Assembly (NCBI RefSeq): GCF_036346105.1
Contig: NZ_CP107811.1
Coordinates: forward strand, 186,001 to 250,000
Source: Streptomyces sp. NBC_00539
GTDB lineage: Bacteria; Actinomycetota; Actinomycetes; Streptomycetales; Streptomycetaceae
Length of the DNA stretch: 64,000 nucleotides
Direction: 5' to 3'
A program made the translations under genes and the position numbers. The notes below the pieces were generated by a model that made no database searches, was not told where the DNA came from, and worked only from the letters and a program-made list of their open reading frames with translations. Positions within the stretch are counted from its first letter, which is position 1; the number at the start of each line of letters is the position of its first letter. This document shows positions 31,338 through 37,735 of the stretch, in pieces.

Positions 31338-31683
31338 TCGTATCCGGGTGCGCGGCTTGGGGAGCCCTGGCGGCGCGGCAGGTCCGCCAGGTGAGCCGTA
31401 GTGGCTGTGCTCAAGACCCCCGTTGCCCCGGCGGCCAGCAGGTGACGGACACGCGGGCGCCTACCGTTGACTTCCCCGTAACCCGAAACGAGTGGCCCTG
31501 CCCCGCGCAGGACGGCGACCCTATCCCCTATCCGAAGACGCCCGAGCTGATGGGCCAGAATTACCCACCGTCGCCGGGAACCCGGACGCCTGGACCGCCT
31601 GCCTCCAGAGCGCCCGACTGACCGCCCTCACCCTTGAGCGGGCAACGCGATCCTGCCGCGCTCCACCTCGATCGCCCGCGTGG
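31338..31683. other. Intergenic stretch
   Basis: No supported gene. It lies between the promoter side of the MBL gene and the 3' end of the conflict-module membrane gene. Confidence 0.4.
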
Positions 31684-32625
31684 TCACCGGACCGGAGAGC
31701 TGGACGACGAGGGACGCGGGGGCGGGCTGGGTTTCACATGGTGCGCGAGGGCGGCGCCGGACTCCCGCAGGAGGGGCCCGGTGGGTTCCAAACCCAGCTG
31801 GCCAGCGAGATCGCGGGCGCAGAGGCGAACGGTGGCCTCCAGCAGTGTGGCGTACGTGTCGGCTGCTACACGGGTACGGTGCCAGCCCCCAATGGCCAGA
31901 ACGGCCGAGATGGCAGTGGCGGGCCACCACCACACGGCAAGGAGCAGGTACAGCAGGGACCATGCGGACAAGGTGCTCGCGCGGCTCAGTGCCTGACGGG
32001 CGTCTGAGATCTCCGTTCGGACCGTCTCGGGTGCGGTCAGCCACAAATGCGGCCACAGCGTTGCCAGATCAAGGTGGTAGTCACGCTGCACACGGACAGC
32101 AACGGCATGGACGCGGTCTCCGCTCCAGGTCGGACGGCGAGGGGGTTCCGGGGAGATGCGGGTCATCGCCACCCGCGCGGCATGCCGGGCGGCGGGATCG
32201 ACGCGGCCGGCGACGGCCTCATCCATGTGTCGGTGCCAGGCCTCGGCGAGTGGGATCCAGCGCTGATGTCGATGTTCGGTGATCCGCTGCACGAGGCGAC
32301 GGATCGGGCGGGGCCAGGTGTGCCAGTCGGAGGCAAGGTGAAGGGTTTCGACCACTGAGCCGATCGCTTGCGCGACCAGTCCGACGGTTGCGGCGCCCGT
32401 CAGCACAGCGGCCAGGAGTACTACTTGGCCACCGGCGGTCCGGGCAGTCGGTGCGTCAGCCCATTCGGTGATTTGGCTGGTCAACCGGCTCAGGCCGAAA
32501 GGGTGCCTGTGACCGAGAGTGGTGGCGACCGTGGCAAGGGCCATGTACAGGGCCCCGGGGAGCACGAGCAGCGAGACCCAGCGTTCGGCCAGTTTCTTGC
32601 CGAGCTCCTCCAGCAAGCCACCCAT
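31684..32625 (-). CDS. Membrane protein of the CHAT module
   Basis: A 313-residue protein with three probable TM segments: about 17-38 (SLLVLPGALYMALATVATTL), 66-92 (VVLLAAVLTGAATVGLVAQA) and 222-250 (WSLLYLLLAVWWWPATAISA). A 130-residue soluble loop lies between the second and third, and the tail is Pro/Ser-rich. The start ATG (32625) is three bases after the stop of the upstream gene at 32629, so the two are translationally coupled. It faces the divergent CHAT-protease gene. A membrane partner in a protease-activated system could be the effector or its target; this is inference. Family not recognised. Confidence 0.6.
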   Translation of the reverse strand: MGGLLEELGKKLAERWVSLLVLPGALYMALATVATTLGHRHPFGLSRLTSQITEWADAPTARTAGGQVVLLAAVLTGAATVGLVAQAIGSVVETLHLASDWHTWPRPIRRLVQRITEHRHQRWIPLAEAWHRHMDEAVAGRVDPAARHAARVAMTRISPEPPRRPTWSGDRVHAVAVRVQRDYHLDLATLWPHLWLTAPETVRTEISDARQALSRASTLSAWSLLYLLLAVWWWPATAISAVLAIGGWHRTRVAADTYATLLEATVRLCARDLAGQLGLEPTGPLLRESGAALAHHVKPSPPPRPSSSSSPVR

Positions 32626-32628
32626 CGG

Positions 32629-33027
32629 TTACCTCAGCTCCCGGCGCAAGGTTGCATCGCTGACGGCACAGTGGGGCACGGGAGCAGGCCCCTGGGGCCA
32701 CCAATACCGTGTACACCGTGCGGTCGGACACAGATAGATCGGCTCGGGCGAGCACTCACGGTCGATGCCCACCGCACGGACGCCTCGATCTGCTGTACGC
32801 CCGTTGTCACCGTAGGCATAAAGGCCCTGGACGTCCCCGAGAGCCTGCAAGACTGCATGGAGCACATCGACTGCGTCCGAGACGTCGTCGCCGCGGCGTG
32901 CCGCGGTCAGCAGATCCTGGACGATCGTGTCACTTCCGGCGCGGCTGTTGCGCAGCCGGGCACTGATGCCTTCGGCATTCGCACACACGATCGCCAGCCT
33001 GTGTGCAGCTTCGTCATGCTGAGTCAT
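32629..33027 (-). CDS. Small adaptor-like protein with C-terminal Cys/His finger
   Basis: A 132-residue protein. The N-terminal 80 residues are helical (AAHRLAIVCANAEGISARLR, VSDAVDVLHAVLQALGDVQG). The C-terminal part reads PIYLCPTARCTRYWWP then PVPHCAVSDATLRREL. This is a C-x4-C and H-C arrangement like the short zinc fingers seen in proteins encoded beside CHAT, vWA and MoxR genes in bacterial conflict systems. ATG at 33027. It is the first gene of a two-gene operon with the membrane protein and is divergent from the CHAT gene across 122 bases. Its role as an adaptor is inferred from context. Confidence 0.6.
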   Translation of the reverse strand: MTQHDEAAHRLAIVCANAEGISARLRNSRAGSDTIVQDLLTAARRGDDVSDAVDVLHAVLQALGDVQGLYAYGDNGRTADRGVRAVGIDRECSPEPIYLCPTARCTRYWWPQGPAPVPHCAVSDATLRRELR

Positions 33028-33058
33028 GAGCCCCCCGGTCCGACAAGTCCCCGCACTC

Positions 33059-33087
33059 TTGCCCGTCCGAATACGAGGTTATACAAC
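33059..33087 (+). promoter_or_regulatory. Candidate promoter for the CHAT gene
   Basis: TTGCCC (33059-33064), a 17-base spacer and TACAAC (33082-33087) form a reasonable SigA-like promoter in the divergent region. The start codon chosen is at 33150. Confidence 0.4.
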
Positions 33088-33149
33088 ACGACCCCCTCAC
33101 GTACGGGAATGTGTTAATAACTCAGTGTCACTCAGCATCGGGGGGTAAG

Positions 33150-36100
33150 GTGCGCGATGAACAGCTGGCTGCGCTGCGGGCGCGGCTGCGCCGGATCAAC
33201 GGCCGACGTGATCTGGCCGTGGTGTTGGACCCCGAAGCGGTCCGCCAGGCGCGCAGGCTGGAGCCCTACGGCGAGCGGGGCGATCTGGAAGTCCTGCGCC
33301 TTCTCGGCTGGTTCCACCTGTACCGCGCACAGGCGCTACCGGACAGCGTCCACGGCATCTTCGCGATGAAGTCTGCACTCGACGCGTTCGGTGCGTGCTT
33401 TAGGGCTGCCGTCTCCGGTCTGCCCGAAGTATTGCTTCCCCTTCTCGCCGATGAGGCCGACCGCACCGCGACCGCCATGTTGGAGCACGCACTGGCCCAC
33501 CCGGACTCCGGCAGGCTTGCGACCACGGTGGATCTGTGGCAGCGCATCCTGGGAGCTACTCCGGCCGAGCACCCCGAGCGGGCCAGTCGGTTGGCCCGAC
33601 TGGGGACGGCGAAGGCTGTCCTGTTCGACCTGACCGGCAGTTTGGAAGACCTGAATGACGCCGTCACCGTGCTGCAGGAAGCGGTGGCCACCGCCCAACC
33701 GCACGACCCTCAGTACGCGGGGATACTGTCGCATCTCGGCCTGGGGCTGTTCCTGCGGTCCGAGCGAACCGGTGACCCGGACGACCTGAATTCTGCCATC
33801 GGCCACTTTCGGAAGGCGTTACGTGCCTTCCCCGCCGACTTCTCGGACCGCTCGGGAACCTTGTCCAATCTGGCGGGCGCGCTGGTGAGGAGATACGAAC
33901 GGACCAGTGCGCCAAAAGATCTGAACGAAGCTATCGCCTTGGGCCATGAGGCGGTTGCCGCCAGCCAGCCCCGCCATGCCGACCGGGCAGGGCGGCTGTC
34001 GAACCTCGGGACAGCGTTGATGATCCGGTTCGCACGGACGGGCGCGCTGGAGGACCTGAACACTGCCATCGATCACTTCCACGAGGCGTACAGCATTCCG
34101 GTCGACGCTCCTTTCGATCACGCCGGCATGGTGCTTAACCTCGGTTGCGCACTCCTGCAGCGGTTTCACCGCAAGGGTGGGCCGGAGGACCTCAATACCG
34201 CCATCGATCACATCAAGGAAGCGGTGGAGACCGTACCTCCGGGCTATCGCCACCGGGCAGGATGGTTGTCCATCCTCGGCGGCGCTCTGGGTGACCGGTT
34301 CGAACTGACCGGTGCGCTCGAGGACCTGGACGACGCCATCGCATTTGGACGTCAGGCAGTGGCCGCGACCCCGGCCGACCACCCAGACCGTGCCTCGTGG
34401 TCGTCCAACCTGGCCGCGGCGCTGCGGCACCGGTTCGACCGGACGGGAGCCGAGGCCGACCTGGAGGCTGCCATCGACGCAGGTCAGCAGGCGGTGGACG
34501 GGCTACCCCTCCATAACGCGGCTCGGGGGAGGGCGCTGGCCAACCTCGGGGGTGCGCTGTTGAGGAGGTACGAGCGAAACGGATCTCTGAGGGACTTGGA
34601 CCTCGTGATCGACCACTTCAGCAGAGCCGTGGACGAGACCCTGCACGACCATGACGACTACGCGAGGTGGCTGTCCAACCTGGGGACCGCACTACGAAGC
34701 CGATCCGAGCGGACTGGTGCCGAGGCGGACTTGGAAGCGGCCGTCGCGGTCGGCCGGAAGGCGGTGGCGACAGCACCACTCGATCACCCAGAACGCGGAA
34801 GGACGCTGTCCAACCTCGCACTCGCCCTGTTCAGTCGGTTCCGGCGAACCAAAGACCGGGCGGACCTGGATGCCGCCATTCTGGGCTTCCGCCAGGCGGT
34901 ATCAGCCGTTCCCGACAGTCGGCCCGAGCGCGCGAGCTTTCTATGCAATCTCGCAGTCGCGCTCGGCGAGAGATTCATACGCGGGAGCGCTGCCGCGGAT
35001 CTGGACGAGGCAGTGCGGTGCCAACTGGAGGCGGCGGCCGCAGAATCGGCAGCTCCTTCGGTCCGCGTCCGAGCAGCGTGGACGGCGGCTGCGCTGCTGT
35101 TTGAGTCCGGTGATGTGACGCGGGCTGCGGAGGCAGCGGAAGAAGCCGTGCTGTTGCTCCCGCAAGTGACCCCTCGTCGCCTCGAGCGCAGTGACCAGCA
35201 GTACGCGATCGGCGCCTTCGCCGGACTGGCGACCACGGCCGCCGCGTTGGCGCTTACCGCCCCGGGTGGAACCGCTTCCGGGCGGGCTGGGCGGGCTCTA
35301 CGGTTGCTTGAGGCGGGCAGGGCGGTACTGATCGGCCAAGCGCTGGACACCAGGAGTGATCTCACCGATCTGCGCCAGCACCACCCGGAGCTGGCACGCC
35401 GGTTCACGCTGTTGCGCGAGCGGCTTGATGCTCCCACGGATTCCATGACTTTCGTCGAGGGGGGCGGTGGCCCTGCGGTCCAGCACGACCCTGAGGCACG
35501 GCACCGTCGTCGGCTCGTGGACGAGTTCGCCTCTCTCCTGGCTGAAATACGCAGTCTGAAGGGCTTCTCTTCCTTCGCGTCACCACCCACCATCGAAGAG
35601 CTCCTTTCCGAGGCCTCCCATGGTCCGGTGGTGATTTTCAACGTCAGTGCCTTCCGCAGTGACGCCCTGCTGCTCACCAGTGCGGGCATCACCAGTGTGG
35701 AACTACCGCTCCTCACTGAGGACAAGCTCTTCGATCAGATCACCGGCTTGCAGCGAACCCGGCAGGCAGCGTCGGCCGGGTCGGACCAGACGGAACGAGA
35801 GCAGGCTCAGGCACACCTCGTCGACATGCTCCAGTGGCTGTGGGATGTGGCCGCCGGGCCGGTGTTGGAAGCCTTGGGATATGCCGACTCCCCTTCAACA
35901 AGTCGTCGGCGGGAGGGCCAGGACGAGGAGTGGCCGCGGGTGTGGTGGATCCCCGGCGGCCTGTTGGGACAGCTGCCCCTCCACGCCGCCGGCTATCACA
36001 CCGACCCTGCCGAGGGCGCACCAATGCGTACCGTCATGGACCGGGTCGTCTCCTCTTACACGCCGAGCGTGCGCACTCTGCGATACGCCCGTGAACGTGC

Positions 36101-36803
36101 GCACGCCCGTGCCGCCCAATCGGCACAGGCCACACGCAGCTTGATCGTGGCGATGCCGACCACGCCAGGTCTTCCGGACGAAGGGCGCCTTGATTTCGTC
36201 GCGAAGGAAGTGACCAAAGTCTGGCCTCACTTACCGCATCCTCTACTCCTGAAGGAGCCTGGGACCACCGAGGGAACCGCCGAGCCAACGCCGCTCATCC
36301 CCACCAGCGTCAACGTGCTTACGTGCCTTCCGGACTGTACGTTCGCTCATTTCGCATGCCATGGTGACAGCGACTCGGTCGACCCGTCGAAGAGCCTGCT
36401 CCTGCTCCACGACCACCGGGAAGCCCCGCTCACCGTGGCCACTCTGGCCGCAACCGTGCTCGATCGGGCCGGACTGGCCTACTTGTCCGCCTGCCGCACC
36501 GCGGCCGTCGACCACCTCCAGCTCCTCGATGAGGCCATCCATCTCACCTCCGCGTTCCAGCTCGCCGGCTTTCCCCATGTCATCGGAACGCTTTGGGAAA
36601 TCGACGACCAGGTGGCTGTCACCATCGCTGATGACTTCTATACCGGCCTGCGGGTCGGTTCCGGACGCATGGACCCCGAACGCGCAGCGCGCGCCCTTCA
36701 CGAGGCCGTACGCCGGGTACGCGACGGTCACGACCTGCCGCCGCCCTTCGACCGGAGAGGAGCGCCCCTGCTCTGGGCCGCCTATCTTCATGCGGGCGCG
36801 TGA
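33150..36803 (+). CDS. TPR-CHAT protein (caspase-like peptidase)
   Basis: A 1217-residue protein. From about residue 100 to 650 it is a string of TPR-like repeats, each about 45 residues, with the pattern LSNLGTALRSRSERTGAEAD then LEAAVAVGRKAV. The last 370 residues are a CHAT domain, a caspase-related cysteine peptidase. FAHFACHGD carries the catalytic His1071 and AYLSACRTAAVD the catalytic Cys1115; FPHVIGTLWEIDD is the standard following strand. In related systems such as Craspase/TPR-CHAT, the repeat part senses a partner and the CHAT part cuts a target protein. GTG at 33150 is preferred (GGGGG upstream) over 33111. It is divergent from the finger and membrane genes. Confidence 0.88.
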   Translation: MRDEQLAALRARLRRINGRRDLAVVLDPEAVRQARRLEPYGERGDLEVLRLLGWFHLYRAQALPDSVHGIFAMKSALDAFGACFRAAVSGLPEVLLPLLADEADRTATAMLEHALAHPDSGRLATTVDLWQRILGATPAEHPERASRLARLGTAKAVLFDLTGSLEDLNDAVTVLQEAVATAQPHDPQYAGILSHLGLGLFLRSERTGDPDDLNSAIGHFRKALRAFPADFSDRSGTLSNLAGALVRRYERTSAPKDLNEAIALGHEAVAASQPRHADRAGRLSNLGTALMIRFARTGALEDLNTAIDHFHEAYSIPVDAPFDHAGMVLNLGCALLQRFHRKGGPEDLNTAIDHIKEAVETVPPGYRHRAGWLSILGGALGDRFELTGALEDLDDAIAFGRQAVAATPADHPDRASWSSNLAAALRHRFDRTGAEADLEAAIDAGQQAVDGLPLHNAARGRALANLGGALLRRYERNGSLRDLDLVIDHFSRAVDETLHDHDDYARWLSNLGTALRSRSERTGAEADLEAAVAVGRKAVATAPLDHPERGRTLSNLALALFSRFRRTKDRADLDAAILGFRQAVSAVPDSRPERASFLCNLAVALGERFIRGSAAADLDEAVRCQLEAAAAESAAPSVRVRAAWTAAALLFESGDVTRAAEAAEEAVLLLPQVTPRRLERSDQQYAIGAFAGLATTAAALALTAPGGTASGRAGRALRLLEAGRAVLIGQALDTRSDLTDLRQHHPELARRFTLLRERLDAPTDSMTFVEGGGGPAVQHDPEARHRRRLVDEFASLLAEIRSLKGFSSFASPPTIEELLSEASHGPVVIFNVSAFRSDALLLTSAGITSVELPLLTEDKLFDQITGLQRTRQAASAGSDQTEREQAQAHLVDMLQWLWDVAAGPVLEALGYADSPSTSRRREGQDEEWPRVWWIPGGLLGQLPLHAAGYHTDPAEGAPMRTVMDRVVSSYTPSVRTLRYARERAHARAAQSAQATRSLIVAMPTTPGLPDEGRLDFVAKEVTKVWPHLPHPLLLKEPGTTEGTAEPTPLIPTSVNVLTCLPDCTFAHFACHGDSDSVDPSKSLLLLHDHREAPLTVATLAATVLDRAGLAYLSACRTAAVDHLQLLDEAIHLTSAFQLAGFPHVIGTLWEIDDQVAVTIADDFYTGLRVGSGRMDPERAARALHEAVRRVRDGHDLPPPFDRRGAPLLWAAYLHAGA

Positions 36804-37087
36804 ACCCCGAGCCGCTCGCCGCTGTATCGGGCGACGCACCGCTTCCGGACAGGACGGCCAGGCCTCGGTCGGCCAGGGGGGAACCAGTGTCGCCCGCTCC
36901 GGGTTATCGGTGTGGCAGACGTCTGTGACACGGCGATGGGCACCGTTCGTTCCAGCGCTTACACCTGGACGTGCGATCAGCGCAAAGCCCCTCGCCAACT
37001 ACCTCGACTACGTCGACTCCGCGAACGCCTCGCCCACATCCCGGTTGCAGCCATGCGCTCTTTCGCGACTCGGTTCTGTCTTCTTGG
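36804..37087. other. Interval between CHAT gene and IS relic
   Basis: No gene is supported. A plus-strand frame at 36912-37103 has no recognised domain. Confidence 0.4.
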
Positions 37088-37735
37088 TCAGCGCCGCGTC
37101 TGAGGATGCCCGCGAGGTGGAGTGCGGCCTAGTAAGCGGTCGCGAGCTTGTCGGTTCGTGTGGCCAGGCCGCGCCACTGTTTGAGGCGGTTGATGCGCGA
37201 TCGACGGCGTTCCGCTGCTTGTAGGCCTCCGCGTCGAAGGCGGGGGCGGACGGCCGCCGAGCCGGCCTCGCCGCAGGCGGTGGCCGCCTTGGCCGGAGGG
37301 CTGCGGGATGACCGCACGGATGCCCCGACGGCGCAGGTGGTTGCGGATGGCGCGGGAAGAATACGCGCGGTCGGCCAGGACAGAGAGGGTCCGTGGCCTG
37401 CCCGGCCCGCTTCGAGGCACGCGAATGCGGGACATCACCGTCTCGAAGGCGGGTACATGACCTGCTTGGCCTGTGGTGACAGTGAAGGCCAGAGGACGTG
37501 CGCGGCCGTCTGCGCCAAGTGGGCCTTGGTGCTCAGCCCGCCGCCGGAGCATCCGAGCCCGCGATCGGCGGGCTCGCGGAAATGGACCGCCAGCTGCCCG
37601 GATGACCGCGGAGTCCACCGAGACCGTCCAGTCGATGTCGTCGTCGACGTCCGCCGCCAGGGCGAGCTGGTGCGGTACTTCCACGCGACGGCCTCAAGAG
37701 TGCGGCGGTGCTCGGCCCATCGCGCAGTCGGGCCC
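37088..37735 (-). pseudogene. IS5-family transposase relic, multiply frameshifted
   Basis: Pieces in different frames match the same transposase group as at 18211: ARWAEHRRTLEAVAWKYRTS, then DDDIDWTVSVDSAVIRA, and RPLAFTVTTGQAGHVPAFET, LSVLADRAYSSRAIRNHLRR and RGIRAVIPQ. The first and second catalytic Asp are recognisable, but the frame is broken several times and the C-terminal end is scrambled. It abuts the 3' end of the glyoxalase-like gene at 37739. Confidence 0.8.

Follow-up and report, generated by a model that had tools for sequence, protein, structure and literature searches.

Divergent orientation of a protease gene and a pair of partner genes marks the locus described here. In a 64,000-nucleotide stretch of the genome of Streptomyces sp. 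NBC_00539 (NZ_CP107811.1, positions 186,001 to 250,000; the window), a gene for a TPR-CHAT caspase-like protease (C) faces away from two adjoining genes, which encode a small cysteine-finger protein (F) and a membrane protein (M). Comparison of related loci indicates that F, M and C almost certainly form a conserved unit, as 124 of 141 distinct loci with a strong match to M carry a CHAT gene within 7.5 kb. We propose, with a probability of roughly 0.4, that the trio is a protease-controlled membrane switch in which C would cut F to release M. To our knowledge, few bacterial caspase-like proteases have known targets. In many actinobacterial genera the present protease clade is accompanied by nearly the same two partners, so that three genes suffice for a direct test of its target and mechanism. 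Should M prove to be the effector, caspase-controlled cell death would gain a membrane executor other than a gasdermin. The features of the locus are as follows.

31684..32625, minus strand: M, a 313-residue membrane protein predicted to be all-helical (open reading frame, conservation, structure model, hydropathy)
32629..33027, minus strand: F, 132 residues, with a helical N-terminal part, a linker and a cysteine finger (open reading frame, alignment, model)
32635..32742, minus strand: C-terminal finger of F, residues 96-131, with C100, C105 and C120 conserved (alignment, model)
32785..32787, minus strand: Arg81 in the flexible linker of F, a candidate cleavage site (alignment, model, motif count)
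33028..33149, no strand: 122-bp divergent intergenic region between F and C, the presumed promoter region
33150..36803, plus strand: C, the TPR-CHAT caspase-like protease, 1217 residues (open reading frame, Pfam, fold search)
33567..35069, plus strand: TPR array of C, approximately residues 140-640 (Pfam, fold match; limits set by eye)
35826..36797, plus strand: CHAT domain of C (Pfam), with the catalytic His1071 at 36360-36362 and Cys1115 at 36492-36494

Linkage and distribution of the three genes

A survey of 150 genomes of the genus with single-sequence queries gave matches to M in 39, to F in 11 and to CHAT relatives in 84. A profile search of 345 genomes from the class recovered M in 40, which belong to 17 of 126 genera. 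A scan of named genomes, which reaches close relatives only and does not imply absence from other genera, returned 79 M loci in Streptomyces, Nocardia, Kribbella, Actinomadura, Nocardiopsis, Amycolatopsis, Catenulispora, Nonomuraea, Microbispora, Glycomyces, Dactylosporangium, Phytohabitans, Streptosporangium, Allokutzneria and Actinokineospora. M matches are also present in 8 of 72,556 plasmid records.

The locus set assembled from these searches comprises 165 M loci, or 160 distinct ones once five duplicates are dropped, and those with a match above 150 bits (n = 141) were counted as strong. Seven of the 17 strong loci without a CHAT gene have less than 5.5 kb of sequence on one side. Within 20 of the 39 M-bearing genomes, hand-picked after the CHAT search mainly for good assemblies, 29 M places were counted, and a CHAT gene lies within 10 kb of 24 of them, where 0.27 would be expected. 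Since the genus is rich in CHAT genes (these 20 genomes have 73 hits), a chance neighbourhood of unrelated genes could be imagined; however, the observed excess, the 124 CHAT-bearing strong loci and the preservation of the set across rearranged gene orders make this explanation so improbable that it was rejected. Besides M, CHAT and F, no recurring family was found in more than 16 of the 160 loci. The survey thereby bears out the preliminary description of this DNA, a reading of the sequence made before any database search, which had viewed the three genes as one module.

Several gene orders occur among the 165 loci (duplicates included): CHAT is divergent from F-M in 78, follows it in 19 (F-M-CHAT), is convergent with it in six and precedes it in five (CHAT-F-M), and others make up the rest. 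F lies directly upstream of M in 109 of 164 M genes, again with duplicates, and in 99 of these 109 pairs it overlaps M or sits within 4 nt of it. Owing to this tight coupling of their genes, F and M probably form a membrane complex. A different small open reading frame precedes another 23 M genes, and 21 of the 23 frames end, as judged by eye, in a diverged finger; a histidine follows the last cysteine in some diverged F-like partners from genomes of another family (f18). For 31 further M genes no upstream frame was called, although the F profile detected some F genes that gene calling had overlooked, and the one M gene left has a second M piece there.

Pairwise distances among 94 loci are correlated between M and C (0.84), M and F (0.83) and F and C (0.77), and none of 1000 permutations was as high; loci with an M match of 200 bits or less, with other than exactly one CHAT gene or without an F profile match were dropped from this test. 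A tree of 144 CHAT domains, from which domains shorter than 230 residues or scoring below 150 bits were left out, places C of the window in a supported group of 63, composed of 59 M-linked members, one with a weak M and three unlinked ones. M-linked rows are over-represented and unlinked ones under-sampled in this tree, because most rows entered through M and the unlinked loci (L120-L134) are hand-picked strong hits. As a counterweight to shared species history, where a genome carries a second copy (L097, L101), M and CHAT of that copy find the same relatives, which belong partly to other families (L170, L175). The GC content at third codon positions (GC3) is 0.771 in M, 0.699 in F and 0.761 in C, compared with 0.815-0.925 in eight neighbouring genes, and this common reduction fits joint acquisition.

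The protease and its two partners

C matches the Pfam CHAT family PF12770 (E 3.8e-39, 135.3 bits against a curated cut-off of 24) and TPR_10 (E 3.7e-18). These matches were obtained on a 1230-residue reading from the alternative upstream GTG at 33111, whereas the residue numbers used here follow the 1217-residue reading from the GTG at 33150. The nearest solved chain in a fold search is that of the TPR-CHAT protein 7zoq (E 0.001). Read by eye, the TPR repeats are about 45 residues each, and no tandem array was found at the DNA level. The catalytic His and Cys are intact in all 144 CHAT domains that pass the length and score filter, from which we infer that protease activity is retained. The open reading frame, the Pfam matches and these domains thus agree with the earlier account of a 1217-residue TPR-CHAT protein with intact His1071 and Cys1115. 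The same account placed C divergent from two coupled genes, as the coordinates confirm; both F and M lie on the minus strand, and the F stop is 3 nt ahead of the M start. No sigma-70-type consensus was matched within 31400-37200.

According to its structure model (mean predicted local distance difference test score, pLDDT, 80.4), F consists of a confident four-helix N-terminal part (residues 3-62), a flexible linker and a C-terminal cysteine hairpin. The stretch of lowest confidence, residues 78-84 with pLDDT below 50, holds Arg81. This linker residue is Arg in 50 of the 53 alignment rows that have a residue there. The motif R[GST]xx[PA]xG was found in 37 of 106 F linkers, whereas shuffling gave 2.5 on average and 9 at most, a comparison in which the motif was picked after viewing the alignment and the rows are related to one another. 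Three cysteines (C15, C100, C120) are invariant, a fourth (C105) is present in 53 of 54 rows, and His is invariant at no position; of the Cys/His finger suggested previously, the cysteine part therefore stands and the His part does not. In the model proposed below, the C-terminal hairpin is taken to be a metal finger. F of the window belongs to no Pfam, NCBIfam or PADLOC family, its sole Pfam match being sub-threshold (E 0.021), and no significant fold match was found in a structure search. When 28 relatives of F and 29 of M were compared with Pfam, only weak matches limited to one or two members each were obtained (best E 0.013).

The model of M is all-helical and of high confidence (pLDDT 93.5, predicted template modelling score 0.85). 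Hydropathy and helix limits place hydrophobic segments, with bounds set by eye, at approximately residues 17-37, 66-91, 217-232 and 235-250, which suggests about four membrane segments in two hairpins instead of the three formerly assumed. A positively charged helical domain lies between the hairpins and is presumably cytosolic; the conserved RPTWxGDR and WPxLWL motifs sit in this domain, between the second and third segments. The modelled M is compact, lacks flexible loops in its interior and has a pLDDT of at least 50 in every segment. A non-helical tail follows residue 297, is unconserved in the consensus, and ends in three residues with an average pLDDT of 66. No family in Pfam, NCBIfam or PADLOC was matched by M of the window.

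A proposed membrane switch and its alternatives

In the switch that we propose, the TPR array of C would hold the protease idle and recognise a stress or invader signal. Once activated, C would cleave the flexible linker that joins the helical part of F to its metal finger, at the conserved Arg, and M would thereby be released or rearranged. The four predicted membrane segments of M and its charged helices could then alter the membrane, with opening or permeabilisation as the likeliest mode, and arrest growth of the cell or compartment concerned. Precedents exist in which the targets of such proteases are products of adjacent genes, which makes F and M the prime target candidates. The available part of one source describes cleavage by the TPR-CHAT protease Csx29 of Csx30, which is encoded in the same loci, with allosteric activation through the TPR part (PMC10028731); in the accessible portion of another, bacterial gasdermins are cleaved and activated by caspase-like proteases of the same gene clusters (PMC9079055). 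By analogy, it is somewhat more likely than not that C acts by cutting F or M. If so, the odds that F and not M is cut are about even. F may be the substrate, as it offers in its linker Arg a better candidate cut site than M, and the flexibility of this Arg-bearing linker makes F the likelier of the two. M is the likelier effector because it is the only membrane protein of the trio, although its being a membrane effector at all is an evenly balanced matter.

A number of observations weigh against this proposal. The linker Arg is not aligned in four of 54 rows, three of which have another residue (L205, L264, L276) and one a gap (L235), and it is lacking in the near relative L075. A looser pattern of R plus a small residue is present in 117 of 123 linkers, little in excess of the shuffled mean of 105 and maximum of 114. 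M resembles no known pore, and nothing was found at E <= 0.001 in PDB or BFVD. The correlated distances partly reflect shared species history. Six F-M pairs have no nearby CHAT gene (L086, L167, L208, L213, L259, L271). The genome of L086 carries another full trio (L082), and in the other five genomes the best CHAT locus shows 35-45% identity to the 144-domain set; by this comparison, which took the single best CHAT locus per genome and left out other CHAT hits, no close trio-type CHAT appears to be present in trans. One further strong M locus has neither F nor CHAT (L262). The preliminary description had considered that a CHAT gene occurring widely without the other two would speak against the module. 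This is half the case: only 26 of the 73 CHAT hits in the 20 M-bearing genomes are near M and 47 are not, yet the strong M loci mostly have CHAT. The association is thus asymmetric, being much stronger from the side of F-M than from that of CHAT. Consistent linkage of F and M to other functions, the other counter-indication that the preliminary description named, was seen only for a distant branch of M (L195, L197, L198), which accounts for three of the 17 strong loci without CHAT.

Also adverse is a survey of genes that flank M, drawn at random up to a total of 140 genes from 50 loci, without a matched control set and without the flanks of the window: it gave no clear sign of a defence island. 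Most of these genes look ordinary: 146 Pfam families were found, and the 25 listed are mainly of metabolism, transport and regulation, with a few transposases. PADLOC matched 55 families, with at most four members each among the 25 listed; the models listed include Csa3 (up to four members), PD-T4-6 (best 3e-228), mad3, mad6, mad8, PD-T4-2_B and a kinase model, and these matches were not assigned to particular loci. We take the PD-T4-6 models to be broad kinase models. None of the three window proteins matched a PADLOC-DB system model at E up to 1. A role in defence against phages or other invaders is nevertheless conceivable, if somewhat short of even odds, because of family precedent and a patchy, mobile-looking distribution.

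The ordinary flanks would suit a housekeeping regulator of the envelope or of development, in which proteolysis tunes membrane physiology, for example during differentiation. The hosts would suit it as well, since these actinobacteria, Streptomyces, Nocardia and Nonomuraea among them, are in many cases filamentous. However, the patchy presence of M in the genus (39 of 150 genomes), the GC3 below that of the neighbours, the copies on plasmids (eight records) and the changing gene order suit a mobile accessory system, and we regard a housekeeping role as unlikely. Alternatively, F-M could be the sensor, a membrane pair that responds to a metal or envelope signal by activating C, which would then cut unrelated cellular proteins. 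Csx29, in contrast, is activated through its TPR part, as far as the available part of PMC10028731 goes, and a conserved Arg in a flexible linker of F is more target-like than sensor-like; this arrangement seems to us fairly doubtful. It is also imaginable that C cuts M itself, for instance in its C-terminal tail, so that a fragment forms the lesion by a gasdermin-like logic with an unrelated fold, and F serves as chaperone or anchor. Craspase and gasdermin loci do encode known substrates beside the protease (PMC10028731 and PMC9079055, from their accessible portions), and the modelled M has a non-helical tail. On the other hand, M is compact and lacks an internal flexible loop, and its tail is unconserved, which leaves this reading improbable. 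If the switch by cleavage of F is extended to its full form, the trio would be an undescribed cell-death or immunity system, in which a TPR-CHAT protease cuts a metal-finger gatekeeper at the conserved Arg and frees a new, non-gasdermin, four-segment membrane effector. The trio (F-M) would then stand beside DUF6338 and CATRA among a number of parallel TPR-CHAT systems, with unrelated partners driven by related proteases. In this entirety the proposal is rather unlikely.

Known systems and diverged relatives

The trio resembles several known systems in part. CATRA systems, reportedly described by Burroughs and Aravind in 2020 as cited in PMC8195603, likewise combine a TPR-CHAT gene with dedicated partner genes and are also present in the genus. 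Library searches returned these partners under the names CATRA-C and CATASP, which we take to be PF20270 and PF20271. In one genome (G101), a TPR-CHAT gene has CATASP and CATRA-C at a distance of about 3-5 kb, and three TPR-CHAT genes near the two (L123; G101:C1:2606053-2618898) form a CATRA-type locus; the same genome also has two F-M-CHAT loci (L075, L097). A weaker CATRA-C match lies near a TPR-CHAT gene in G038. The searches that find one CATRA-C and one CATASP in G101 gave neither at E <= 0.001 in the window genome, and profile comparison revealed no relation of F to the CATASP region or of M to the CATRA-C region of G101. Membership in CATRA was rejected on both grounds.

Craspase (type III-E, Csx29/Csx30) shares with the trio a TPR array, a CHAT protease and partner genes in the locus. 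Its partners are Csx30, Csx31 and CASP-sigma, whereas those of C are finger and membrane proteins without family matches. The Csx29 model NF041237 scores 39.1 bits on C against a cut-off of 300, and C was accordingly not assigned to Csx29. F and M gave no NCBIfam match, in a search confined to the proteins themselves, the genome not having been searched for gRAMP/Cas7-11, Csx30, Csx31 or CASP-sigma.

Bacterial gasdermin-protease pairs resemble the trio in having a caspase-like protease beside a putative membrane-acting partner, but M is predicted to be all-helical with its own membrane segments. Gasdermin likeness of M was seen neither in Pfam nor among the 50 matches listed in each of two fold searches. 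The EACC1-caspase systems (Kaur et al. 2020) also combine a caspase-superfamily peptidase with a membrane-associated partner. In the available part of their description (PMC7159879), EACC1 has one membrane helix, and its partner begins with a caspase domain followed by variable domains. Membership was rejected, as M has about four predicted segments instead of one conserved helix and the CHAT domain of C is C-terminal, behind the TPRs.

A different TPR-CHAT subtype adjoins a membrane protein of the DUF6338 family (PF19865). It was found at five of 15 CHAT loci not linked to M (L122, L124, L125, L130, L132), two confirmed by Pfam and three by a profile of our own, and comparison showed no relation of DUF6338 to M. 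These different partners (DUF6338, CATRA) of other TPR-CHATs in the same genus suggest a modular protease platform. Judged from sequence, the trio is a new variant of the theme of TPR-CHAT plus partners, with two protein families undescribed in the libraries searched, since the partners of some other TPR-CHATs are different and show no relation to F and M, and the window genome is without CATRA-C and CATASP. In keeping with the earlier statement that no named system has this exact trio, no description of it was found in family libraries or in a literature search that covered few subscription papers.

Some observations concern single loci. A short box, GCGTATC-N5-AACT, recurs in the divergent F-CHAT gap of four loci (L205, L206, L207, L210) and is possibly a shared promoter or operator of these; L075 and L231 show partial likeness to it, and none is evident in the window. 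Distant relatives of M without F or CHAT are present in two genomes of the same genus (L195:7677-8624, L198:8063-8992), with neighbours that by eye resemble succinate dehydrogenase subunits, and are perhaps a separate branch with another role. At L194:583-9214, a distant M-like protein of 530 residues has an extra C-terminal part, and ahead of its gene lie two open reading frames labelled CHAT and one for a small finger protein of another kind. Another distant relative of M (L203:7397-8882) lacks CHAT but still has a small cysteine-finger protein ahead of it, and for this reason the finger-membrane pair may predate the link to CHAT.
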